From a virus: DNA of 20,056 nucleotides. Every line of letters starts with the position of its first letter. The first letter of the stretch is position 1. The stretch lies in IMG/VR virus record IMGVR_UViG_3300036766_000113, positions 1-20,056 of that record; one strand, 5' to 3'. Of the stretch, positions 2,925-18,294 are shown in pieces. The translations under genes and the position numbers were made by a program. Under the pieces are notes generated by a model. The model was given only the letters and a program-made list of their open reading frames with translations. It made no database searches and was not told the origin of the DNA.

Positions 2925-3553
2925 GCACCATCCACCTGTACGGGGCCATGGCCGACGTCGTGGGGCAGACCATCGAGTTGAACGTGGTGTCCCCGCGCGA
3001 GGCGTTCCGCGCCCTCATCATCCAGTTCCCCAAGCTCCGGTGGGTGCTCCGGGACGGGGCGTTCCACGTGGTCACCCGGAACCGGGACGAGGAGCGCGAC
3101 CTCGACGTGGGGCAGATGGACATGTCGCTGGGCGACCGGGACCTGTTCGTCATACCCGCCGTGCAGGGTGGGGGCAAGGGCACGATGAAGGTGATCCTCG
3201 GGGTCATCATCATGGCCATCGCCATCATCGCGGCGATCCCGACCGGCGGCGGCAGCTTGGTGCTCGGCACCGAGCTTGTGGTTGGAGAGATGGCGCTGGG
3301 GGTGACGGCCGGGTCCCTACTGGTGTTCGGCGCGATGATGACACTCTCGGGCGTGGCGATGATGCTCGCGCCGTCCCCGAACACAAACAACGAGACCGTG
3401 GAGCCGGCCGCAGCGCGCCCGAGCTTCGTGTTCGACGGGGCCGTCAACCTCGGTGAGCCGGGCAACGCCATCCCGCTGGTTTACGGCGGGCCTATACGCG
3501 TGGGGTCGGTGGTCATATCGGCGGGCATCACCACCGAGGAGTTGGCGGTGTGA
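2921..3553 (+). CDS. I: Tail assembly protein I (lambda gpI-like)
   Basis: The start is GTG 2921, overlapping the K stop (GTGA); a TTG at 2903 in the same frame is possible. The 210-residue product has a ubiquitin-like N-terminal part ('IHLYGAMADVVGQTIELNV', then 'REAFRALIIQFPKLR'). A hydrophobic segment follows from about M89 (VILGVIIMAIAIIAAI), then a second apolar glycine-rich stretch, 'MMLAPSPN', and a C-terminal 'IPLVYGGPIRVGSVVISAGI'. The same succession, including 'LAP' followed by 'VLYGEMRVGSRVVSQEI', is found in lambda gpI. The family is needed for tail-tip assembly and is not always found in the mature virion. Position between K and J confirms it. Its stop is overlapped by the GTG start of J. 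Confidence 0.88.
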   Translation: MSTIHLYGAMADVVGQTIELNVVSPREAFRALIIQFPKLRWVLRDGAFHVVTRNRDEERDLDVGQMDMSLGDRDLFVIPAVQGGGKGTMKVILGVIIMAIAIIAAIPTGGGSLVLGTELVVGEMALGVTAGSLLVFGAMMTLSGVAMMLAPSPNTNNETVEPAAARPSFVFDGAVNLGEPGNAIPLVYGGPIRVGSVVISAGITTEELAV

Positions 3554-6500
3554 GCGACACGGTGTTCATACGCGGTGCGGGCGGCGGGGGGTGCTTCCCC
3601 GCCGGGTCCCCCATCATGCTCGCTGGCGGCAAGTTCGCGCCCATCGAGTCGCTCAAGCCGGGCGACGAGGTGCTGTCGTTCATCGAGTCAGGTGCCGTCG
3701 TGGCCTCCAAGGTGTCCGCGCTGCACCGGCACCCCGACCCGCAGGCTCTCATCAAGGTTCGGTTCTGGCACGGCAGCGTGGTGGTCACGCCGAACCACTG
3801 GGTGCTGAACCAGTACGGCACGTTCGCCGAGGCCGGGACCATGCGCACCGACGACGCGCTGGTCGACGCGCTGGGCCACCTCCGTCCGATCATCGGCGTC
3901 GAGGAGCTTCCGCCGGAGCCGGTCTACAACATCACTGTCGACCCGCACCACACGTTCATCTGCTACGGAGTGCGCGTACACAACGGCGGGCTGGGCCTGC
4001 GCTACCCCGTCATCGAGGGCGGGGGCGGTGGTGGCGGCAAGGGTGGCGGTGGCGGGCACACCCCCGTCGAGGAGCCGAACACGCTCCGGTCCAAGGCGAC
4101 CGCCAAGCTCATCGACCTCATCAGCGAGGGTGAGATCGTGGGCCTGCTCAACGGGGCGAAGTCGATATTCTACGACGGGACCCCGCTCCAGAACCCGGAC
4201 GACTCGTACAACTTCAAGGGCGTCGTGTGGGAGGAGCGCAAGGGCCTCCACGATCAGACCGTGATCGCGGGCATGTCGGACGTCGAGTCCGAGATCGTGG
4301 TGGGCGTCGAGGTCAAGAACGCCACCCCGGCGGTGCGCACCATATCGGACAACGACGTCGACGCCGTGCGGGTGACGCTCCGCATACCGGCCCTGTTCTT
4401 TCAGGACCCGTCAAACGGCGACATGCGCGGCACCTCGGTGCAGGTGGCGATAGACGTGCAGGCGTCCGGCGGTGGGTACGTCGAGGTGGTGAATGAGACC
4501 ATCACAGGCAAGACCACGTCTACGTACGAGCGCGCGTGGCGCATAGAGTTGACCGGCAGCGCGCCGTGGAACGTCAGGATGAGGCGCGTGTCTGCGGACT
4601 TCGTGGGGGCCAACCACCAGGGCCAGACGTGGTTCACGCGCTACACGGCGATAATAGACCATCACCTGACGTACCCCGACTGCGCCATGGTGGGGCAGGC
4701 GGTGGACTCGCAGCTATTCGGGGGCACCATCCCGAGGCGCGGGTACGAGGTGAACGGCCTAAAGATCAAGGTCCCCACCAACTACAACCCGGTGACCAGG
4801 GTGTACGACCCGCCGATATGGGACGGGACGTTCAAGGTGGCGTGGACCAACAACCCCGCGTGGGTGCTGTACGACATCATCACCAACTCGCGTTACGGCC
4901 TCGGGGACTACGTGTCCACGTCGATGGCCGACAAGTGGTCGCTGTACGTCATCGGCCAATACTGCGACGTGCTGGTGGACGACGGTTTCGGTGGGACCGA
5001 GCCGCGCTTCACGTTCAACGGCGTACTCATGTCCGCCGAGGATGCGGTGCGCGTGCTCCAGTCCATCGCGGCGGCGTTCCGTGGGATGGTCTATTGGTCG
5101 TCGGGGTCGATCACGGCGGTGCAGGACTCGCCCTCGACCCCGCTCAAGGTGGTGAACAACACCAACGTGCTCGACGGGATGTTCGCCTATGCGGGGACGG
5201 CCCGCAAGGCGCGGCACACCGTGGCGGCCGTGACGTGGAACAACCCGCTCCTGGGGTACAAGCGAGACATCGAGGTGGTGGAGGACCAGGACGGGCTGGC
5301 CCGCTACGGCGACCGGCTGGTGCAGGTGGTGCTCCTCGGATGCACGTCGCGCAGCATGGCGCGGCGGTACGGCCGGTGGCTCCTGCTCACCGAGCAGCTT
5401 GAGACCGAGACGGTGAGCTACAAGGTCCAGTTCGACCACCTCGATGTGATGCCCGGCGCGGTCATCGAGGTGTACGACCAGCACTACGCCGGGGTGCGCA
5501 ACGGCGGACGCCTGCTCGACTACCTCGCAAACCTCCTCCTCTACTCGGAGCAGTTCCAGCAGGCCACCTGGACGAAGTCCAACCTCACGGTGTCCCCCGA
5601 TGCGCTCAACGCGCCGACCGGGGCGGCCACGGCCGACCGCCTCGTGGAGGCGGCGACCACAACCGTACACCGCACCGAGCAGCAGACGGCGAAGGCGGCG
5701 CTGGCGCAGCGGTTCACGTTCTCCGTCCACCTCCGGTCGGCAGAGCGCACCAGGGCGTACGTGGTGCTCTACGGGACCAGCGACGCGAACCGCGCGGAGG
5801 CCCGCGTCGACCTGTCGACCGGCGCGCTCGACCACGTGCGCACATTCGGCACGTTCGACGAGCCGATGGCGTTTGCGTCCGACGCGGGCGGCGGGTGGTG
5901 GCGTGTGCAGTTAACTGCAAAGACCACCGCCGACGCCGTACTGAACTGCCGCGTGGCGCTCACCGACGGGGTGGGGGCCGACTCGTCGGCGACGTACGCG
6001 GGCGACGCGGCGAAGGGGCTGTCCGTGTGGGGCGCGCACCTCCTGGAGGGGTCGGACCTCAGGACCTACACCGCGTCGGCCGGGGTGCTCCCCGAGTCCG
6101 CCGTGCTGGTGGACGACCCCGTGGTGGTGTCAGGCGGGCAGACCTACACCATGTCGTGCGAGCTTGTGGACGGCACGGTGTCGGACCTGCCGATCAATGA
6201 GCCGCCCGGTTCCTACACCACCGTGCAGATGCTGGGGCGGTTTCCGCTGACCCCGCGCATACACGGGCTGTGGGGCGTCACCTCGACCAGCGTCAACCCG
6301 CGCACGTTCCGTGTGGTGGCGATCCGCGAGTCCGAGCGCGGCGTGTACGAGGTCACGGCGCTCCTGCACAACCCGAACAAGTTCTCCGAGTCCGAGGCCG
6401 ACGTGGTGTTCGACACGCCGTCGTTCACCGTGGTCAGCGGTCCACTCAGCAAGCCGTCGGACCTGACCACGGTCGAGACGCTGTACCGCGAGGGTCCGGC

Positions 6501-7809
6501 CGTCCTGTCCGCCGTGACCCTGTCGTGGACGGCATCGTCTGACCCGCGCGTGTTCCGCTATGAGGTGGAGTACATGCGCCCGAACGAGGACACTTGGTAC
6601 CCGGCCGGCATCACCGAGCGCGTGTCGATGAACATCGTGGGCACCTTCGCGGGCACATGGGGCTTCCGCGTACGCGCCCTCGACCGCACGTCGATGCCGT
6701 CCGCGTGGGAGACCAGGGCGTCGGTGGGCCTCCTGGGCATGTCCGCCCCCCCGGCCGACGTGCAGGACTTCAATGTGTCCGCCGTGGGCACCGTGGCGCA
6801 TCTAGGTTGGTCCCCAGTCGGCGACCTCGACCTGTCGCACTACCAGATCAGGCACGACCCGTCGGTCACCGGGGCATCGTGGTCGACCTCAATACTCATG
6901 ATCGACCGCGTGAGCCGATCCGCCACCGGCATGGCCGTCCCCGCATACAGGGGCACATACCTCATCAAGGCGGTGGACCTATCGGGGTCTGAGAGCGTCA
7001 ACGCCGCTTTGACCGTATCGAACACGAGTTCTCTGGACAGCTTCAACGCCGTGGAGGCGGTGGTGGAGGAGCCTGCCTGGGCCGGGGTAAAGACCAACAC
7101 CATCAAGGTGGGTGCGGAGTTGACGCTGGCGGCGGACAACTTCATGTCGGACTGGGTGGCCCTGTCCGACGTGGTGAACTTGGTCATCGGTGTGGGTGGG
7201 TTGGAGCCGGAGGGTGGGTACGAGTTCGACAACGTGATTGACCTGGGTGCGCCGTACACGACGGCGAGGTTAATACCGCGCGTCGACGCGTACGGCGAAA
7301 ACGTGTTGAATGTGATGAGCGGTTGGTTGGCCCTGTCCGATGTGCGAACGCTGGACGGCCTCGACCCAGGTGACTGGGACGTCGAGTTCTATGTGTCGAC
7401 GACCGACGACGACACGACCGGTTCGCCGACGTGGACGCCGTTCAGCATCGCGTCCATCTCCGACTACGCCGGACGCGGGTTCCGCTTCAAACTGCTGCTG
7501 TTCAGCGAGAAGCCGTACGTCAACATCCACGTGACCATCGCCGAGGCCACGGTGGACATGGACGACCGCGTGGCGTCGGGCCTCAACCTCGTCGCGACGG
7601 TGGCTGGCCTGAGGGTGGACTTTGCCCCGTCATTCCATTCGCTCCAGGCGCTTGCGTTCAACGATGAGAACATGGCGACCGGTGACTATCGCGTGGTCAC
7701 AAATAAAAGCAAGACGGGGTTCGATGTCTTGTATAAGAATGCGGCGGGGTCCCCCGTGCAGCGACAGTTCGACTACGTGGCCAAGGGCTACGGCTACGAG
7801 GCGGTATAG
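3550..7809 (+). CDS. J: Tail tip host-specificity protein J (lambda gpJ-like) with N-terminal Hint domain and lectin-like insert
   Basis: GTG 3550 overlaps the I stop and follows GAGGAG, giving 1419 residues (lambda gpJ is 1132). Domains in order: short N-terminus (1-14) ending in four Gly; Hint/intein-like domain C15-N145; Gly-rich linker (157-169) leading to 'HTPVEEPNTLRSKATAKLIDLISEGEIVG', the true N-terminal signature of gpJ; tail-tip core with 'YDIITNSRYGLGDYV' and 'SAEDAVRVLQSIAAAFRGMVYW'; a jelly-roll/carbohydrate-binding-like insert (about 661-845, 'NLLLYSEQF' to 'TYTASAG'); fibronectin-III-like repeats (about 968-1060 and 1066-1155); a duplicated motif region (1198-1208 and 1255-1265); and a C-terminus 'GFDVLYKNAAGSPV...FDYVAKGYG' typical of phage host-specificity proteins. 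gpJ forms the tail tip that contacts the host receptor. The Hint domain may be excised or cleaved (inference). The TAG stop is followed by an SD for the next gene. Confidence 0.92.
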   Translation: MSDTVFIRGAGGGGCFPAGSPIMLAGGKFAPIESLKPGDEVLSFIESGAVVASKVSALHRHPDPQALIKVRFWHGSVVVTPNHWVLNQYGTFAEAGTMRTDDALVDALGHLRPIIGVEELPPEPVYNITVDPHHTFICYGVRVHNGGLGLRYPVIEGGGGGGGKGGGGGHTPVEEPNTLRSKATAKLIDLISEGEIVGLLNGAKSIFYDGTPLQNPDDSYNFKGVVWEERKGLHDQTVIAGMSDVESEIVVGVEVKNATPAVRTISDNDVDAVRVTLRIPALFFQDPSNGDMRGTSVQVAIDVQASGGGYVEVVNETITGKTTSTYERAWRIELTGSAPWNVRMRRVSADFVGANHQGQTWFTRYTAIIDHHLTYPDCAMVGQAVDSQLFGGTIPRRGYEVNGLKIKVPTNYNPVTRVYDPPIWDGTFKVAWTNNPAWVLYDIITNSRYGLGDYVSTSMADKWSLYVIGQYCDVLVDDGFGGTEPRFTFNGVLMSAEDAVRVLQSIAAAFRGMVYWSSGSITAVQDSPSTPLKVVNNTNVLDGMFAYAGTARKARHTVAAVTWNNPLLGYKRDIEVVEDQDGLARYGDRLVQVVLLGCTSRSMARRYGRWLLLTEQLETETVSYKVQFDHLDVMPGAVIEVYDQHYAGVRNGGRLLDYLANLLLYSEQFQQATWTKSNLTVSPDALNAPTGAATADRLVEAATTTVHRTEQQTAKAALAQRFTFSVHLRSAERTRAYVVLYGTSDANRAEARVDLSTGALDHVRTFGTFDEPMAFASDAGGGWWRVQLTAKTTADAVLNCRVALTDGVGADSSATYAGDAAKGLSVWGAHLLEGSDLRTYTASAGVLPESAVLVDDPVVVSGGQTYTMSCELVDGTVSDLPINEPPGSYTTVQMLGRFPLTPRIHGLWGVTSTSVNPRTFRVVAIRESERGVYEVTALLHNPNKFSESEADVVFDTPSFTVVSGPLSKPSDLTTVETLYREGPAVLSAVTLSWTASSDPRVFRYEVEYMRPNEDTWYPAGITERVSMNIVGTFAGTWGFRVRALDRTSMPSAWETRASVGLLGMSAPPADVQDFNVSAVGTVAHLGWSPVGDLDLSHYQIRHDPSVTGASWSTSILMIDRVSRSATGMAVPAYRGTYLIKAVDLSGSESVNAALTVSNTSSLDSFNAVEAVVEEPAWAGVKTNTIKVGAELTLAADNFMSDWVALSDVVNLVIGVGGLEPEGGYEFDNVIDLGAPYTTARLIPRVDAYGENVLNVMSGWLALSDVRTLDGLDPGDWDVEFYVSTTDDDTTGSPTWTPFSIASISDYAGRGFRFKLLLFSEKPYVNIHVTIAEATVDMDDRVASGLNLVATVAGLRVDFAPSFHSLQALAFNDENMATGDYRVVTNKSKTGFDVLYKNAAGSPVQRQFDYVAKGYGYEAV
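3592..3984 (+). other. Hint domain (bacterial-intein-like, type-A-like) inside gpJ
   Basis: This domain covers residues 15-145 of gpJ (131 residues, too short for an embedded homing endonuclease). Intein/Hint blocks are visible: block A begins with Cys15 (CFPAGSPIMLAGG) followed by 'IESLKPGDEVLSF'; block B has Thr80-x-Asn82-His83 (VVTPNHWVLNQYG); block F is 'VYNITVDPHHTFIC'; block G ends 'VRVHN', with His144-Asn145. The following residue is Gly146, not the Cys/Ser/Thr needed for canonical splicing. This matches the class of bacterial intein-like domains known to cleave rather than splice efficiently. Cys15 is preceded by four Gly, and the segment after Asn145 returns to a Gly-rich linker, so the domain sits in the flexible N-terminal linker of gpJ. 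Confidence 0.85.
5905..5920. repeat. Palindrome family copy 1 inside gpJ (GTGCAGTTAACTGCAA)
   Basis: This copy contains a perfect 14-base palindrome, TGCAGTTAACTGCA (5906-5919), and matches GTGCAGTTAACTGCAC at 15 of 16 positions. It lies in the lectin-like insert of gpJ and is read GTG CAG TTA ACT GCA (Val-Gln-Leu-Thr-Ala), using TTA, a scarce codon in this GC-rich window. Confidence 0.7.
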
Positions 7810-12537: not shown

Positions 12538-13140
12538 ATGCCGAACAACGGACTCAACGGCCAGCGCGTGCCCCCGCCCGAGGTGCTCGCGGCGCTCCCC
12601 GTCGGGTGGGACATCTACACCTACTTCGGCCAGACCGAGACGGTGTATGCGCGGCCTGCGGCCGGGGCGAAGGCGCTGGTGCTTTGGGTGGACGCGAACA
12701 CCGCGCGCTACCGCACCGGGGACTTCAAGGGCAAGGTGTTCACGGCCGCCAACGCCACCGAGATATTCACCTCGGTGGGGCACGGGTTCGCCACCGGGGA
12801 CGGCCCGTTCCCGGTCAGCAATTCGGGCGGTGCGCTTCCGGCCGGGCTGGCGGCGAACACGCCGTACTGGGTCATCCGCCTCGACAACGACACGTTCAAA
12901 CTCGCGACCTCATACGCGGATGCAATTGCCGGCACGTTCCTCCTGATCTCGACCGACGGCTCCGGCACGCAGACCATCGCCGGCCTGCCTGCGGCGGAGG
13001 CACCGGCTGCGGTGTCCAACGGTTTCGGGTCGATATACCTCACCGGGGCCGGGACCATCCGCGTGCTTGCCGCGCCCGAGAAGTTCACCCTGCGCGGATA
13101 TAATGCCGCCACGGCAATATCTTTCTATTGGTTGCCTTAG
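12538..13140 (+). CDS. Beta-rich phage structural-type protein (200 aa), function unknown
   Basis: ATG 12538 follows GAGGAG at 12525-12530 with a 7-base spacer. The centre of the protein contains 'GHGFATGDGPFPVSNSGG', 'LPAGLAANTPYWVIRLDNDT' and 'FKLATSYADAIAGT', a small beta domain that recurs in many phage virion and baseplate/fibre proteins. The C-terminus (GFGSIYLTGAGTIRVLAAPE) also looks beta-rich. No signal peptide or membrane span is seen. Placement after the spanins is unusual for a virion protein, and it could be a decoration, tail or fibre-associated protein. Its TAG stop overlaps the GTG start of the HNH gene (TAGTG). Confidence 0.75.
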   Translation: MPNNGLNGQRVPPPEVLAALPVGWDIYTYFGQTETVYARPAAGAKALVLWVDANTARYRTGDFKGKVFTAANATEIFTSVGHGFATGDGPFPVSNSGGALPAGLAANTPYWVIRLDNDTFKLATSYADAIAGTFLLISTDGSGTQTIAGLPAAEAPAAVSNGFGSIYLTGAGTIRVLAAPEKFTLRGYNAATAISFYWLP

Positions 13141-13565
13141 TGGGGAGGCCCATTATCCATGGGCACAATCGTGCCCACACGGTGGGTCGTTCTCCGACAT
13201 ACCAATCTTGGCGTGGTATGTTGGCAAGGTGTGATGATCTTCAAGATAAAAACTACGGCGGGCGCGGTATCATCGTATGTGAAGCATGGCAGACGTTTGA
13301 AGGCTTCCTGTACGACATGGGCGAGAGGCCAGTTGGTCTAACATTGGACCGCAAGAACAACGATGGTCCGTATGTAAAATGGAATTGTCGGTGGGCCACC
13401 ATGAAAGAGCAGACCCACAATAGACGAGGGACCAAACTAACCGAAAACGTCGTGGCTGAAATACGCACTTGTCTTGCGGTCGGGGAGAGAGGGGTGGTGC
13501 TTGCGGCAAAGTTTGGGGTGTCCCGATCAACCGTGAGCATGGTTAAACACAGCCTTCGTTGGTAG
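13140..13565 (+). CDS. HNH-type homing-like endonuclease with C-terminal helix-turn-helix
   Basis: The start is placed at GTG 13140, overlapping the previous stop; TTG 13128 is an in-frame alternative inside the upstream gene. The 141-residue product carries the well-known phage/bacterial HNH-family pattern: 'RSPTYQSWRGMLARC', 'YGGRGIIVCEAWQTFEGFL', 'DMGERPVGLTLDR' and 'NDGPYVKWNCRWATMKEQTHNRR'. Its last ~40 residues ('LTENVVAEIRTCL', 'LAAKFGVSRSTVSMVKH') form a helix-turn-helix-like tail, probably for DNA binding. Base composition is plainly lower in GC than the surrounding genes, with A/T-ending codons and runs such as 'aaaa', which suggests separate, recent acquisition. Free-standing genes of this kind behave as selfish mobile genes in phages. 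It sits at the junction of late and replication genes. Confidence 0.88.
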   Translation: MGRPIIHGHNRAHTVGRSPTYQSWRGMLARCDDLQDKNYGGRGIIVCEAWQTFEGFLYDMGERPVGLTLDRKNNDGPYVKWNCRWATMKEQTHNRRGTKLTENVVAEIRTCLAVGERGVVLAAKFGVSRSTVSMVKHSLRW

Positions 13566-13651
13566 ATTAACCGGCCGCACCTTCCGCTACCACCCCCGCC
13601 ACCGCCCGTGCTATGGTGGCCCCCTCAGCTACCCAAGGAGGGGGACACGGA
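13566..13651 (+). promoter_or_regulatory. Intergenic leader before the replication module, possible promoter
   Basis: This is one of the few non-overlapping junctions and separates late-type genes from the AAA+ ATPase. It holds an inverted repeat, GCCACC at 13598-13603 and GGTGGC at 13615-13620, whose right arm overlaps TGCTATGGT, a possible extended -10 element. No matching -35 hexamer is seen 16-18 bases upstream, so a sigma-70 promoter is only weakly supported. A strong SD, AAGGAGG at 13635-13641, serves the next gene. There is no T-run, so no intrinsic terminator is evident. Confidence 0.3.
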
Positions 13652-14839
13652 ATGTTCGATCTGGCAATCAAAGGCGGCCTGCCGCTCATCGCGGTGAGGA
13701 CCACCGACCCGTTCAATGTGGGCACCGTGCTCCGGCACATATCGGGGCGGCACCCGCTTTGGGTGGCCGACGTGGCCTACCTGCACACGGTCAAGAACGT
13801 GACCGTGCCGTCCCTCATGTACGCCAAGCACGCCAAGGCCGACGTGGACTGGGACCGGGTGTACGAGACCCTGGTGTCGCGCGAGTCTACGCTGGTGCTG
13901 GTGAACTTCACCGACGTCCCGCCGATGTCCCTGGACGCCGGGGAGATGCCCGTACCGCGCGAGATGGTGCTGGCCGCGCTCAAGGAGGCCGCCCTCGGGG
14001 ACGACGTCGTGGCGGCCGTCGCGGGCTCGCTGGGGGGCCTCACCCTCAAGGAGGTGTCTGAGGTGGTGCGCATCACCGAGGCCCGTGACGGGTCGCTCAC
14101 GGCGGCCGGGGCCATGCGCACGCGCCAGATGCTGCGGACCTCGATAGCGGGGCTGGAGCAGGTGGACACCGACTCCGCGATATACTGGCCGCCGTCCGGG
14201 CTCCAGTCGTGGCTTCAGGAGGAGGACGAGTTCTTCATTCTGCACGACGACCCCCGGCTCCGGCCGCGCGGGCTGATGTTCACGGGCGCACCCGGCAACG
14301 GCAAGACGCAGGGGGCCAAGCACGTGGCCCGGCACATGGGCGTGCCGCTGTACCGCGTGGACGTCGGGGCCGCCATGACCAAGTGGCAGGGCGAGTCGGA
14401 GCGGGCGTTCTCCGCCGTGCTCCACCGCCTCGACCACGAGGAGCCGTGCGTGGTCCTGTTCGATGAGGTGGACAAGTTGTTCGTGCAGGGCAACGACGAC
14501 ACTGGCACGGTGCGCCGAATGCTCTCGTCGTTTCTGTGGTGGCTCCAGGAGCACACGTCGAGGGTGCTGACCGTGATGACGTGCAACGACCTCACGGTGG
14601 TTCCGCCAGAACTCTACCGCGCAGGGCGCATCGACCGGGTGCTGACCTTCGACGGCCTGCCGTACGCCAATGCGGTCACGTTCGTGTCGTCGGTGTGCCT
14701 AAAACTCGGGTGGCAGGTGGGTGCGGCCGAGGCCGCGCTGGCCGTCAACAACACCGTGCCGGGCGGCGTGATGTCCTACGCCGACGCGTATGAGTGCGCC
14801 CGCCGTCTGGTGAAGCGCAAGGTGCGCGGGTCAGGGTGA
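13652..14839 (+). CDS. AAA+ family ATPase (CDC48/FtsH-like core)
   Basis: ATG 13652 is used because AAGGAGG lies ten bases upstream; an in-frame ATG at 13613 lacks this support. The 395-residue product has an N-terminal ~185-residue domain without recognised motifs and a C-terminal AAA+ core. That core has Walker A G212-APGNGK-T219, 'TKWQGESERAFSAVL' (typical of substrate-loop/second-region AAA proteins), Walker B 'CVVLFDEVDKL' with D271-E272, sensor 1 N312 in 'VMTCND', and 'YRAGRIDR' with arginine-finger candidates around 326-329. Such proteins remodel protein or DNA-protein complexes using ATP. Its place at the head of the replication genes suggests a job in replication, recombination or takeover of host proteins, but the substrate is unknown. 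The next gene follows after a short regulatory gap. Confidence 0.85.
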   Translation: MFDLAIKGGLPLIAVRTTDPFNVGTVLRHISGRHPLWVADVAYLHTVKNVTVPSLMYAKHAKADVDWDRVYETLVSRESTLVLVNFTDVPPMSLDAGEMPVPREMVLAALKEAALGDDVVAAVAGSLGGLTLKEVSEVVRITEARDGSLTAAGAMRTRQMLRTSIAGLEQVDTDSAIYWPPSGLQSWLQEEDEFFILHDDPRLRPRGLMFTGAPGNGKTQGAKHVARHMGVPLYRVDVGAAMTKWQGESERAFSAVLHRLDHEEPCVVLFDEVDKLFVQGNDDTGTVRRMLSSFLWWLQEHTSRVLTVMTCNDLTVVPPELYRAGRIDRVLTFDGLPYANAVTFVSSVCLKLGWQVGAAEAALAVNNTVPGGVMSYADAYECARRLVKRKVRGSG

Positions 14840-14921: not shown

Positions 14922-15749
14922 ATGAGCGGCAAGGATGCGATCAAAAACGTCGACATGGTCATGGGGTCCGACAAGCAGTTGGACTACGTGGTCATCGCGC
15001 GCAATTTCAAAATCTCGCTGGCGGCGAAGGCGCTCCTGATGAAGGTGCCCACCGGGCTGGCGGTGGGCGCACGGGTGCGCTCGTTTTGGACGAACGACCC
15101 ATCGGCAAAGTTCTCAGTCGACCTGATGAAGGTGGTGACCATGCCCCAGCAGCAGGGCCTCGTGGAGTCGTGGCCGGGGCTGCCGTTCTACAAGGTCGAC
15201 ACCGTGCGGGCGTCGTTCGAGGTGGTGACCGGTTTTGACCTCACAAGCGGCACCCCGCAGGTGCTCCTGACGGCGATCAAGGGCCTCAAGATGCTGGAGG
15301 TGTTCGCCGAACAGATCACCGGTCAGATCAAGAAGGAGCACCTAGTCATCTCCCCCGACGTGCTCGCCGATTGGATGGGGCACTTCCTGTTCTCGACCGC
15401 GTGGTTCGACGGGTTCAAGGACGAGGAGTTGGAGGCCATGGGCGGGGTGGCCGACACCACCGCCTTCCACAACGTCAACCTCGTCACCAAAAAGCACACC
15501 GAGCACCCCGAGTTCGTCACCATCAAGCAGATGTTAGAGGCCGCCTCTGGCGGTGGCCACCCGCTTGGGCACCCCCACGACAAGAAGCCGAAGGCCACCG
15601 CGGGGGGCACGGCCAAGCTGCTCACCTTCCCCCTGCCCGAGCCGACCGACTCCGAGAAGGCGCTGGCCGCCCTGGGGGCCGAGCCGAAGGTGACGAACGG
15701 GGACCCATACCACACGGACGACGACGACGACGACCCGGACGCCGCGTAG
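14922..15749 (+). CDS. Protein of unknown function with acidic C-terminal tail (275 aa)
   Basis: ATG 14922 follows GGAGG at 14912-14916 (5-base spacer). The fold is not recognised. Residues 1-200 are mixed alpha/beta ('LDYVVIARNFKISLAAKALL', 'FYKVDTVRASFEVVTGFDL', 'VLLTAIKGLKMLEVFAEQI'). A flexible Gly/His/Pro/Lys-rich linker (GGGHPLGHPHDKKPKA) follows. The last residues are a run of Asp (HTDDDDDDPDAA). A disordered linker ending in an acidic tip is the layout of single-stranded DNA-binding proteins such as T7 gp2.5 and bacterial SSB, and the replication context would suit that. No OB-fold signature could be confirmed, so this remains a suggestion only. Confidence 0.72.
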   Translation: MSGKDAIKNVDMVMGSDKQLDYVVIARNFKISLAAKALLMKVPTGLAVGARVRSFWTNDPSAKFSVDLMKVVTMPQQQGLVESWPGLPFYKVDTVRASFEVVTGFDLTSGTPQVLLTAIKGLKMLEVFAEQITGQIKKEHLVISPDVLADWMGHFLFSTAWFDGFKDEELEAMGGVADTTAFHNVNLVTKKHTEHPEFVTIKQMLEAASGGGHPLGHPHDKKPKATAGGTAKLLTFPLPEPTDSEKALAALGAEPKVTNGDPYHTDDDDDDPDAA

Positions 15750-15760
15750 GTAGACCCGCC

Positions 15761-15952
15761 GTGTCGCACGCGTGGACGACTTCACAGGGTCCGGCACCGC
15801 GCGGGCGCGCGACGGATGAAAACCATCAAGTTCATCACAGTAGGTACACGTTAGAGGGTGGACCACACTTTAAGGGTACCTATTTGGGATGCTCTACCGA
15901 GCATCTACGCGCGTGCGCGCGAGGCGGGTCAGACGTGGGGGTCAGACGATGA
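15761..15952 (+). CDS. Possible small ORF (63 aa) overlapping the next gene by ATGA
   Basis: GTG 15761 opens a 63-codon frame whose TGA overlaps ATG 15949 of the next gene, the junction type seen throughout this genome. Against it: there is no clear SD, the start is GTG only, and third codon positions are not GC-biased as in the neighbours (for example GAT GAA AAC CAT CAA GTT). The region may be a non-coding leader or a recently acquired segment. The product (YTLEGGPHFKGTYLGCSTEHLRAC in two parts around Gly) matches no family known to me. Confidence 0.3.
   Translation: MSHAWTTSQGPAPRGRATDENHQVHHSRYTLEGGPHFKGTYLGCSTEHLRACARGGSDVGVRR
15888..15905. promoter_or_regulatory. Hairpin GATGCTC-TACC-GAGCATC
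   Basis: A perfect seven-base-pair stem with a four-base loop lies 44 bases before ATG 15949, in the AT-richer ~200-base stretch between genes. It is followed by an alternating CG run (CGCGCGTGCGCGCG) that can itself pair. There is no T-run after it, so it is not a standard intrinsic terminator. It could be an RNA-processing or translation-control element, or a protein-binding site. Confidence 0.4.
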
Positions 15953-16443
15953 AGGTGGTGGGCAAGAGCGTGAGGGACGTCAGGACCTCCCCGCCAAGGA
16001 ATCACCTTGAGGGGGTGCCGTCCCCCCGCCGCTGTTCGGTGGCGTGGGCCTACGAGCACCAGCGGAGGTACGGCGGGGCCTGCGAGGTGTGGACCGTGGC
16101 CCGCATGGGCCAGTTGAGGTGGGCGCTCAAGCACCTGTCGCCGGACGTGCGGTTCCGGTTCATCGCGTTCGTGGTGGGCCGCTGGGCGGAGTTCGCGGCG
16201 TCGGTGAAGCTCCAGGCGGGCATGACGGCGGTGCCCACCCGCCCGTCGGTGGGGTTCCTGGTCAAGCACGTCTCGGTGGCGGTGAACATGTTCGTGGCGC
16301 ACCTCGACGCCAAGACCGACACCTCGGGGGCGTCGTTCGCCACCAACGCCCCAGCGCCGGGGCCGAAGCACGCCCCCGCGCCGTCGCCCGAGGACGCGGC
16401 GGTGTCGGTGGAGGACCTGAAGGGGATGTTTGGAGATGGCTGA
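15949..16443 (+). CDS. Protein of unknown function in replication module (164 aa)
   Basis: ATG 15949 is chosen for its overlap with the preceding possible small ORF and for a TGGGGG stretch ending 7 bases before it. An in-frame ATG 15889 would add 20 mostly basic residues and would read through the hairpin. The protein has a basic N-terminus (RDVRTSPPRNHLEGV), a helical middle ('WTVARMGQLRWALKHLSPDV', 'FIAFVVGRWAEFAASVKLQAG', 'FLVKHVSVAVNMFVAHLD') and a proline/alanine-rich linker ending in a short acidic helix (EDLKGMFG). The final helix on a linker suggests a protein-docking tail. No family is recognised. It overlaps the next gene by eight bases, two genes before the helicase. Confidence 0.7.
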   Translation: MKVVGKSVRDVRTSPPRNHLEGVPSPRRCSVAWAYEHQRRYGGACEVWTVARMGQLRWALKHLSPDVRFRFIAFVVGRWAEFAASVKLQAGMTAVPTRPSVGFLVKHVSVAVNMFVAHLDAKTDTSGASFATNAPAPGPKHAPAPSPEDAAVSVEDLKGMFGDG

Positions 16444-17011
16444 GGCGAAGGCGGTCGCGGCGAACGCGCACCTGTTCGAGAGCGGGGTGCTGAAGCCCGG
16501 CAAGCACGACCGGTTGGTGGAGGACGCCCCGCGCTGGGCGCGCATCGCCGGCATACCCGTGGCGATGCTGGCCGAGCGCGCCGAGGACCACTGCTCGCCG
16601 GGCGAGGTCAAGTGGGCCAACGCCTACCCCGAGCGGGCGCACCGTGGCGAGGGCGGTGGCATCCTCTACGTCGGCAACATGGACCCCCCCGCCGTCCGGC
16701 GCATGCAGGCGCTCGCGGCGAAGTTCATCCGCAACTACATCGACGCCCGCGTGGTGACGCTCGACGAGTACCTAGCGGCGCAGCGCGACGGCGACGCCCC
16801 GCAGTGCTCGGTGCTGTTCGTGCCCCTGGTGCATGCGGCGGCCTCGACCCGCGTGCCGGACTGGCGGGTGCAGGCGCTCGCGGCGGTGTTGGTGGAGCGG
16901 GCCATGCAGCACACCGGTATCCATGTGGACGACTGGGGGGCGTTCGTGGCGGCGTACGGCCAGGGCGTGGCGTACCTCGTGCGCGACTTCGAGGTGGTGG
17001 GGAAAAAATGA
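16436..17011 (+). CDS. Protein of unknown function next to helicase; possible P-loop-less helicase-loader homologue
   Basis: ATG 16436 lies inside the end of the previous gene; AAGGGG at 16420-16425 and GGAG just before it could serve as SD. The 191-residue product has, after a helical N-terminus, 'GGILYVGNMDPPAVRRMQAL', then 'FIRNYIDARVVTLDEYLAA', then 'CSVLFVPLVHAAAS', then 'VQALAAVLVERAMQHTGIHV'. This spacing (beta strand, turn, helix, beta strand with 'lidely' helix, apolar strand) resembles the AAA+ core of DnaC/IstB helicase loaders, but the Walker A Gly-Lys-Thr and Walker B Asp-Asp are absent. Its stop overlaps the helicase start (ATGA), fitting a helicase-partner role. The fold assignment is inference. 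Confidence 0.72.
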   Translation: MAEAKAVAANAHLFESGVLKPGKHDRLVEDAPRWARIAGIPVAMLAERAEDHCSPGEVKWANAYPERAHRGEGGGILYVGNMDPPAVRRMQALAAKFIRNYIDARVVTLDEYLAAQRDGDAPQCSVLFVPLVHAAASTRVPDWRVQALAAVLVERAMQHTGIHVDDWGAFVAAYGQGVAYLVRDFEVVGKK

Positions 17012-18294
17012 GCTTTGCGTTCAGCAAGGACACGGCCGGGATGCGCTTCTTGGCCGCAGCGGTGGGTGCGTCCCTGAAGGACTACGTGCGGTTCAGGCCG
17101 TCCCCCGAGATGTTTCAGGACGCCGAGGTGGAGGTGTTCGAGTTCGTCGATGCTTTCGTGCGCAAGCACTCCAAGGTTCCGCAGCCGGCGACGGTGCAGC
17201 AGAACCTCAAGGTGCAGTTAACTGCACCACCGGAGCCGCTGTCGTTCTACTACGACCAGCTACACTCGCGGTTCGTCCAGACCTCGCTCCGCAAGATGAA
17301 CGCCGACATCGCCGAGCTTCTGAAGGGCGGGCCGAAGCAGGAGGAGCACGCCAAGCTCGCGCGTCAGCGCGTCGAGGCCGCCGTGGCGTCGCTGCGCAAG
17401 GTGGAGGCCGGGGCGCTCCACGTGGTGGACTTCCGCGAGTCCGGCCTGCTGCTCAAGGGCGACATGCTGGCGAAGCTCACCGGGGAGACGTCGGACCTGC
17501 GCCTCGGGTGGGACTCGGTGGACGTCAAGTACGGCGGGGCCGTGGACGGAGACCTCGTTTCGATGGTGGCGCGGCCGGGCATGGGCAAGACCATGCTGGC
17601 GATCTACTCGGCCCGGCGGGCGTGGGCCGAGGACAAGCGCACCCCGCTCGTGGTGTCGATGGAGATGAAGGTGCTCCCGATACTACAGCGCATGGCCGCC
17701 ACGCACGCGGGCGTCCCGTTCGAGCAGATCAAGGGCGGGCTGCTCACCACCAAATCGAAGCCCAAGTTCGAGGCCGCGATGACCCAGGCCAAGGGGCAGG
17801 CCACCCCGCTGTGGGTGGTGGACGGCAACCTAGCCGCGACCGTGGAGGACGTGGCGTCGCTCGCGACGTCGCTGGGCGTGGACTGCATCTACATCGACGG
17901 GGCCTATCTGCTCAGGCACCCCAACATCCGCAACCGGTACGAGCGCGTGGCGGAGAACTGCGACCTCATCAAGAACGTGCTGTGCGGCGACCTCGGTCTG
18001 CCGGTGTTCGCCACGTGGCAGTTCTCGCGCGACGCGGCGAAGAAGCTCAAGACCAAGAAGGGCGGGGCCGTCGACCTGGAGGACATCGGGTATTCGGACG
18101 CCGTCGGGCAGCACTCGTCCCTCGTCATGGGGCTGTTCGAGTCCGAGACCGTGGAGACTATCCTTCACCGCAAGGTCACCGTGCTGAAGGGGCGCTACGG
18201 CCAGACCGGGGAGTTCCTGGTCAATTGGTCCTGGTCGACCATGGACTTCACCGAGCACACGCCGAAGTCGATCAAGGAGCTTCAGAATGAGTGA
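17008..18294 (+). CDS. dnaB: DnaB-type replicative DNA helicase
   Basis: ATG 17008 overlaps the previous stop (ATGA); the frame extends upstream only as shadow. The 428-residue product is a little shorter than typical bacterial DnaB (about 450-470). The N-terminal domain (about 1-150) is helical, and the linker leads to 'LRLGWDSVDVKYGGAVDGDLVSMVARPG'. The RecA-like motor has Walker A R189-PGMGK-T195, 'TPLVVSMEMK' (the DnaB H1a/E motif), Walker B 'DCIYIDG' with D297, and the arginine-rich 'NIRNRYERVAENCDLIKNV' with 'LPVFATWQFSR' (DnaB motif with Gln). The C-terminal part includes 'RKVTVLKGRYGQTGEF', as in DnaB motif H4. It should unwind the phage replication fork as a hexamer with the primase encoded downstream. 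A full 18-base palindrome lies over codons 68-74. Confidence 0.93.
   Translation: MSFAFSKDTAGMRFLAAAVGASLKDYVRFRPSPEMFQDAEVEVFEFVDAFVRKHSKVPQPATVQQNLKVQLTAPPEPLSFYYDQLHSRFVQTSLRKMNADIAELLKGGPKQEEHAKLARQRVEAAVASLRKVEAGALHVVDFRESGLLLKGDMLAKLTGETSDLRLGWDSVDVKYGGAVDGDLVSMVARPGMGKTMLAIYSARRAWAEDKRTPLVVSMEMKVLPILQRMAATHAGVPFEQIKGGLLTTKSKPKFEAAMTQAKGQATPLWVVDGNLAATVEDVASLATSLGVDCIYIDGAYLLRHPNIRNRYERVAENCDLIKNVLCGDLGLPVFATWQFSRDAAKKLKTKKGGAVDLEDIGYSDAVGQHSSLVMGLFESETVETILHRKVTVLKGRYGQTGEFLVNWSWSTMDFTEHTPKSIKELQNE
17211..17228. repeat. Palindrome family copy 4 inside dnaB: perfect 18-base palindrome
   Basis: GGTGCAGTTAACTGCACC is its own reverse complement over all 18 bases. It is read GTG CAG TTA ACT GCA (Val-Gln-Leu-Thr-Ala) in the N-terminal domain of the helicase, the identical codon sequence to copy 1 in gpJ. 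It is the best-conserved member of the family. Confidence 0.75.

Follow-up and report, generated by a model that had tools for sequence, protein, structure and literature searches.

The sequence studied is a virus record of 20,056 bases, referred to below as the window. The ORF of interest, named X, lies on the plus strand at positions 16436-17011 and encodes a protein of 191 amino acids, which its translation, predicted model, fold matches and profile matches mark as a candidate pseudo-ATPase helicase loader with a DnaC/IstB fold and no ATP site. Downstream on the same strand is a dnaB-like replicative helicase gene (17008-18294) with the full architecture, namely an N-terminal helical domain, a linker helix at residues 142-158 and a RecA domain (Pfam DnaB_C, E 5.1e-27; PHROG 19, E 9.6e-47); its model has a pLDDT of 90.2 and matches DnaB with a Z of 31.3. 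The TGA stop of X (17009-17011) shares ATGA with the ATG of this gene, which confirms at 17008-17011 the overlap described in an earlier note on this DNA. The start of X overlaps the 3' end of a plus-strand ORF at 15889-16443 (likely start 15949), an initiator-like partner that retains just the C-terminal domain of a winged-helix protein encoded ahead of X in related phages. This ORF covers positions 198 to 304 of the 317 in the profile of its relatives (E 3.2e-13) and matches a protein of phage DLP5 (BLASTP, E 1e-11); the N-terminal winged-helix part is absent from it. The same gene block holds, at 13613-14839 on the plus strand, a AAA+ ATPase of the classic AAA kind (PF00004, E 1.8e-24), a possible partner of X.

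The earlier note had based its reading on three stretches of X, and all of them were found in the translation: GILYVGN (residues 75-81), RRMQALAAKFIRNYIDARVVTLDEYL (residues 88-113) and CSVLFVPLV (residues 124-132). Both the Walker A motif (GxxxxGK[ST]) and the Asp-Asp of Walker B are absent from the protein. No Pfam family matched X at E values up to 10, and IstB (PF01695) was matched at E<=10 neither by X nor elsewhere in the window. The PHROGs search gave a single match (E 0.1), to a family without function.

Relatives of X were searched with tblastn in 50,697 phage records and detected in eight of them at E <1e-4, with 25-32% identity and a best E value of 1e-19: Stenotrophomonas phages DLP5 (two records), DLP3 and Summit, Rhizobium phages RHph_Y1_11 and TM16, Rhodobacter phage RcZahn and Vibrio phage KarBoss. 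A second query added more Vibrio phages with an X relative. The members are mostly labelled 'hypothetical protein' (Stenotrophomonas, Rhizobium and Vibrio phages), which is also how the DLP3 paper gives its X homologue (PMC7326821); the exceptions are 'DNA helicase' (Rhodobacter RcZahn 52) and 'DNA replication protein DnaC' (Vibrio phage J26). In all twelve annotated regions that we opened, a helicase gene directly follows X. In KarBoss the following gene is annotated only as hypothetical, yet it aligns with the DnaB set. The matches of these two X-based queries are free of any bias from fetching loci through DnaB.

In viral contigs, the window X protein alone retrieved no relative, and queries with the proteins of loci L002, L003, L004 and L070 retrieved 1, 3, 0 and 1 loci, respectively. 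Since single-protein queries found so few relatives, the family was gathered through DnaB. A DnaB-anchored scan of the viral contigs yielded 79 loci, and an iterated profile search of the ORFs from these and the earlier loci gave 72 matches, 59 of them different. The core X set comprises 53 of these 59 sequences, the window X forming a 54th row. Besides the window, 64 fetched loci, including some mutual duplicates, have an X homologue upstream of DnaB. The gap to dnaB was below 100 nt, or the genes overlapped, in 59 of the 64 (some being duplicate contigs), and about 440-505 nt separated the two genes in the remaining five (L029, L038, L041, L049 and L056). This count leaves aside the window and its copy L001, where the mechanical DnaB ORF begins inside X, and scores L026 as adjacent despite a mechanical DnaB ORF overlapping X by 655 nt; as most loci were fetched through DnaB, the nearness is partly built in. 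A six-row X profile run over genomes from 84,980 species of bacteria and archaea detected one place, in Azospirillum sp. RU38E.

For six pairs of X relatives, dN ranged from 0.04 to 0.19 and dS from 0.46 to saturation. Purifying selection thus acts on X in the sampled pairs. The tblastn relatives, the homologous ORFs upstream of DnaB and a dN well below dS confirm that the X ORF did not arise by chance.

An AlphaFold2 model of X, computed with 43 aligned rows, reached a pLDDT of 94.0 and a pTM of 0.90. Its elements are beta1 (74-79), alpha1 (86-99), beta2 (104-106), beta3 (126-130), beta4 (159-164) and beta5 (186-189). In a Foldseek search against the PDB, nine of the ten matches with E<=0.001 were IstB, DnaC or DnaA, the tenth being NSF; IstB (8q4d) came first, and TM-scores were moderate (0.41-0.60 over the best ten PDB matches). 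VIA-align placed the AAA+ domain of DnaC first (3ec2, Z 15.1, 2.7 A over 143 residues), followed by DnaC-ADP (3ecc, 14.8), DnaC in the DnaBC complex (13.9), DnaI (13.7) and IstB (13.4), with a Z of about 10 for other AAA+ proteins such as NSF. Among viral models, the leading matches included unnamed phage proteins, phage entries named 'replicative helicase' and 'DNA replication protein', and Gp225 of Bacillus phage G, which is annotated as a DnaC-like helicase loader. The proposal that the order of strands and helices tracks the DnaC/IstB core is thus borne out by a confident model with DnaC as its best fold match, then DnaI, IstB and DnaA, and the structure prediction and fold search that had been put forward as a test of that proposal returned the DnaC/DnaI/IstB AAA+ fold and no other. 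Identity to DnaC in the structural alignment is 11-13%. Against E. coli DnaC, the aligned part starts only at residue 37 of that protein, leaving most of the DnaC N-terminal helix region unmatched; X has N-terminal helices of its own, which carry an invariant H24.

We next considered the places of the ATP-site motifs in the 54 family rows. Residues 74-90 (16655-16705, plus strand) comprise beta-1, the degenerate Walker A place (GNMDPPAVRR) and the start of alpha-1, as assigned by DSSP; the columns show no conserved Lys and none of the 54 rows has an aligned Walker A. Two regular-expression matches to Walker A, in L044 and L021, have the beta1 glycine as their first residue, which is off the Walker A register. 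The Walker B place is at residues 126-133 (VLFVPLVH; 16811-16834, plus strand), where the family consensus reads LLIPNF and not LLIIDD: Asp-Asp is replaced by P (47/54) at position 130 and by N (41/54) at position 131, the window X having P and L. At the sensor 1 place, residues 159-166 (HTGIHVDD; 16910-16933, plus strand), Asn is not conserved (13/54 at residue 166 and 4/54 at residue 164), and residues 176-186, the arginine-finger stretch as placed by eye, contain no Arg conserved in the 54 rows. The loss of Walker A and of the Walker B aspartates, pointed out in the earlier note for this one protein, therefore holds throughout the alignment.

With the ATP motifs gone, the best conserved stretch is a family signature at residues 99-105 (RNYIDAR; 16730-16750, plus strand), in which R99 is found in 54 of the 54 rows, A104 in 51, N100 in 49 and R105 in 47. 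Elsewhere the most conserved residues are H24 (54), G75 (52), G175 (48), P130 (47), R155 (46) and W143 (45). We discarded a sequencing error or the pseudogenisation of a single gene as the cause of the missing P-loop, the loss being common to the 54 rows and dN/dS being low. The missing ATP site characterises the family as a whole and not one odd gene.

Two proteins may bear on how the site decayed. In the X member L027:3421-3990, the sequence at the Walker A place, GTNGAGKM, comes close to a P-loop. We rejected it as a live P-loop, as Met stands for Ser/Thr and near relatives lack the Gly and the Lys; judged from these sequences, it may at most be a vestige. The protein at L070:3063-3602, in loader position, has no Walker A (GPDSPVKD) and keeps one Walker B Asp (LILDN). 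It matches both the X profile and the DnaC/IstB profile, and it is plausibly a half-way form between an intact and an ATP-less loader.

Profile-profile comparison addressed the homology independently of the model. The 53-row X profile, built without any member having an aligned P-loop, was compared using hhalign with seven DnaC/IstB proteins picked by independent annotation, and gave a probability of 96.7% (E 3.9e-10) over 160 columns. As controls, eight neighbour families from the same loci scored at most 25.6% against the DnaC/IstB set; the ninth, the true AAA+ family, scored 94.5% but over 60 columns only. Twenty column shuffles of the X profile scored no higher than 2.1%, and its reversal gave 0.12%. 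Of 200 random ORFs, one attained an E value of 0.001, over 26 columns only. The window X sequence alone had no match to the DnaC/IstB profile (0.54%), and it is the family profile and the model that match.

Searched over 3885 ORFs, the X profile had as its best non-member L074:612-1229, a P-loop DnaC upstream of dnaB (E 7e-5), followed by proteins of L070, L068 and L087. All of these are encoded upstream of dnaB, at the loader position or close to it, and some have a P-loop while others lack one. Pfam IstB is matched in L074, L087 and L077, and the L074 protein matches Aquifex DnaC in the PDB (3ec2, 7e-10). A scan with P-loop loaders had given 62 loci, 29 of which (some duplicates) hold a DnaB-profile ORF in the fetched stretch. 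For 12 of these 62 loci, the X profile recognises the DnaC-like ORF at E<=1e-3, a count in which L104 repeats the L074 contig, L130-L135 nearly duplicate one another and L136 is a fragment; the intact loader of L084 went unseen by it (0.42%). Among proteins in loader position, that of L068 matches X (93%), that of L070 matches DnaC/IstB (95.5%) and that of L073 matches weakly. We did not retain the view that every protein in loader position is a proven pseudo-loader, as those of L063, L064, L067, L078, L080, L083 and L086 were non-significant with both profiles.

Identity of 11-13% to DnaC and the existence of many similar alpha/beta folds could suggest that X is an unrelated alpha/beta protein that merely resembles DnaC. 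We consider a chance likeness of this kind hardly credible, given that DnaC, DnaI, IstB and DnaA rank above other AAA+ proteins, that the controlled profile homology is independent of the model and that the gene occupies the same position. The model and the family profile together indicate that X is almost certainly a pseudo-ATPase of the DnaC/IstB AAA+ fold.

Intact P-loop DnaC-type loaders are found near dnaB in more distant, sister phages. A DnaB tree was quickly built from 72 rows chosen among 126 with a DnaB match; several of its DnaC rows sit on long branches. On this tree, P-loop-less loaders (34 rows with X, 10 with more divergent proteins and 2 of unknown kind) split from the intact-DnaC rows with an SH-aLRT of 99, the X rows alone having an SH-aLRT of 98. 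One change is enough to account for the ATP-less loader state. As a side observation, DnaB spans 756-1220 amino acids and not about 420 in L057, L061, L087, L107, L109, L115 and L118, which suggests helicase inteins in several related phages.

Taken with the gene position, the DnaC/IstB homology makes it probable that the job of X is to load or deliver DnaB. The missing residues can also be read differently: with these switch residues gone, X lacks what couples DnaC to ATP turnover, and a gene beside dnaB could encode any DnaB partner, so X might regulate or tether the helicase, as an inhibitor or as an adaptor to primase or initiator, and never load it. We hold this to be improbable, for X fills the place held by P-loop loaders in the sister phages, and beside dnaB the annotated X loci showed no further candidate for a loader. 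Some phage proteins are known to bind the loader or the helicase of the host (PMC4887207), and X could in principle take over the host DnaB or block the host loader. Its tie to the phage's own dnaB, by overlap or short gap in the great majority of loci and in phages of very different hosts, renders a host target far less probable still.

Under the loading reading, X would descend from a DnaC/IstB-type AAA+ loader whose ATP-site motifs were lost, and would serve the phage's own DnaB as a loader or an adaptor resembling one. It would bind the DnaB hexamer, probably at its C-terminal face, and several copies would keep the ring open or bring it to single-stranded DNA or to the initiator, with X working as a scaffold rather than a nucleotide switch. 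The RN(F/Y)IDAR stretch and an N-terminal LDPxxHxRL stretch might replace the nucleotide contacts or the N-terminal latch of DnaC. Release of the helicase could then come from DnaB's own ATPase, from primase or from the AAA+ ATPase encoded upstream.

Helicase loading in X-bearing phages may thus need no ATP in the loader itself. Mechanistically, a DnaC fold whose ATP site does not work could still load the helicase: in vitro, E. coli DnaC with a mutated Walker A loads DnaB at an effectively wild-type level, ATP turnover tuning efficiency and helicase activation (PMC8213410). It is also plausible because lambda P and DciA load helicases and are not DnaC-type ATPases (PMC6391071; PMC9912922). 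In E. coli, the N-terminal domain of DnaC is described as a latch on DnaB, and a construct lacking it (53-end) loses DnaB binding (PMC9912922). As the DnaC match of X begins only at residue 37, X would have to grip the helicase in some other way, perhaps through the N-terminal helices of its own. DnaC, DciA and lambda P dock on a module of DnaB that includes the linker helix (PMC9912922), and this helix is present in the partner DnaB, at residues 142-158.

The upstream AAA+ gene was examined using a profile built from the window AAA+ ATPase and ten relatives. A homologue was detected in 37 of 42 X-bearing records; in four of the other five (L025, L035, L037 and L047) the contig breaks off within about 1.3-2.7 kb on the upstream side of the DnaB match, so these say little on absence. 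Where a divergent P-loop-less protein occupies the loader position (ten records), a homologue was also found in eight, the exceptions being L064, where the search covered a 79-kb contig, and L078. No full-length homologue was detected in the 24 records with an intact P-loop loader, several of which are near-duplicates. Seven of these 24 gave weak matches (12-18 bits over 35-41 positions, in frames of 205-291 amino acids), all located inside the loader gene on the loader's own P-loop. In the DLP5 record (L032/L002) the AAA+ ATPase occurs twice in full length, near 30.5 kb and again at 83.7 kb.

This distribution invites a split-loader reading, akin to the earlier note's idea that the upstream AAA+ ATPase supplies the ATP, in which X would hold the helicase and the AAA+ protein (13613-14839) would burn ATP to remodel or release the X-DnaB complex, the ATPase function having moved to a separate gene. 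A Fisher test of 37/42 against 0/24 gives 1.9e-13 with descent ignored, which overstates the association because both traits map to one clade of the DnaB tree and amount to about one event. For this reason, we did not retain the co-occurrence as independent evidence of function. Other genes usually separate the AAA+ gene from X, and neither L064 nor the Azospirillum element (L024/L172) has such an ATPase. The latter is a prophage with the order wHTH-X-dnaB-primase and no AAA+ of the window kind; the 6.1-Mb Azospirillum genome gave three AAA+ matches, the best being a partial domain (94 bits, 645-aa frame). X without the AAA+ gene in this element means that a partnership is possible and not obligatory. 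We therefore regard the split-loader reading as tentative and rather doubtful. Slightly more doubtful is the wider proposal of a two-part machine in one large phage clade, in which the loader would have become a dead scaffold at about the time when the classic AAA+ gene joined the block. If true, ring holding and ATP-driven release would be carried out by two different proteins.

X can be placed among known systems as follows. With DnaC/DnaI loaders it shares the predicted fold, the order of strands and helices, a gene beside the replicative helicase and remote profile homology; unlike them, it lacks Walker A, Walker B and sensor 1, leaves DnaC residues 1-36 unmatched and carries RN(F/Y)IDAR instead. 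It shares the AAA+ fold with IstB, the IS21 helper ATPase (PF01695) and source of the best Foldseek match (8q4d), but has no Pfam match and no ATP site, and it adjoins a helicase rather than a transposase gene. Gp225 of Bacillus phage G and the actinophage 'DnaC-like helicase loaders' are, like X, phage proteins annotated just upstream of helicase genes; unlike X, they keep the P-loop and Walker B. Phage lambda P is a phage-encoded loader whose gene lies beside that of the initiator. It loads the helicase without itself binding ATP and is described as unrelated to DnaC in sequence and structure (PMC6391071), a description that sets it apart from X with its predicted DnaC fold. DciA, a non-ATPase loader of bacterial DnaB, is likewise distinguished from the AAA+ fold of X by its KH-type N-terminal domain, as described in PMC9912922. 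A search of titles and abstract starts in the open-access literature, with subscription papers and preprints outside its scope, found no ATP-site-less DnaC-type phage loader. Judged from sequence and predicted structure, the X family is best taken as a DnaC-type loader turned pseudo-ATPase.

The use of ATP by DnaC-type loaders is described as poorly understood (PMC8213410). In keeping the predicted loader fold and the gene position while dropping the ATP site, the X clade offers a natural separation-of-function set, and comparing it with the P-loop sister phages would show directly whether loading requires ATP in the loader and what replaces it. The reading also supplies a functional hypothesis for a family mostly labelled as hypothetical and draws attention to the uncharacterised AAA+ gene nearby.

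Other ORFs in the window were noted in passing. The one at 14922-15749 (275 amino acids), between the AAA+ and initiator-like genes, has no Pfam or PHROG match. A tail-tip-like ORF of 1419 amino acids (3550-7809) starts, within 3550-4000, with CFPAGSPIMLA...PHHTFICYGVRVHNGG, which by eye alone resembles a Hint/intein-type domain. Finally, a small ORF at 13128-13565 and L041:3505-3951 look alike by eye (TPTYQSWESM and SPTYQSWRGM). The L041 ORF sits between X and dnaB, where L029, L038, L049 and L056 have a stretch of similar length, and small ORFs of this sort are possibly a mobile homing-type gene.
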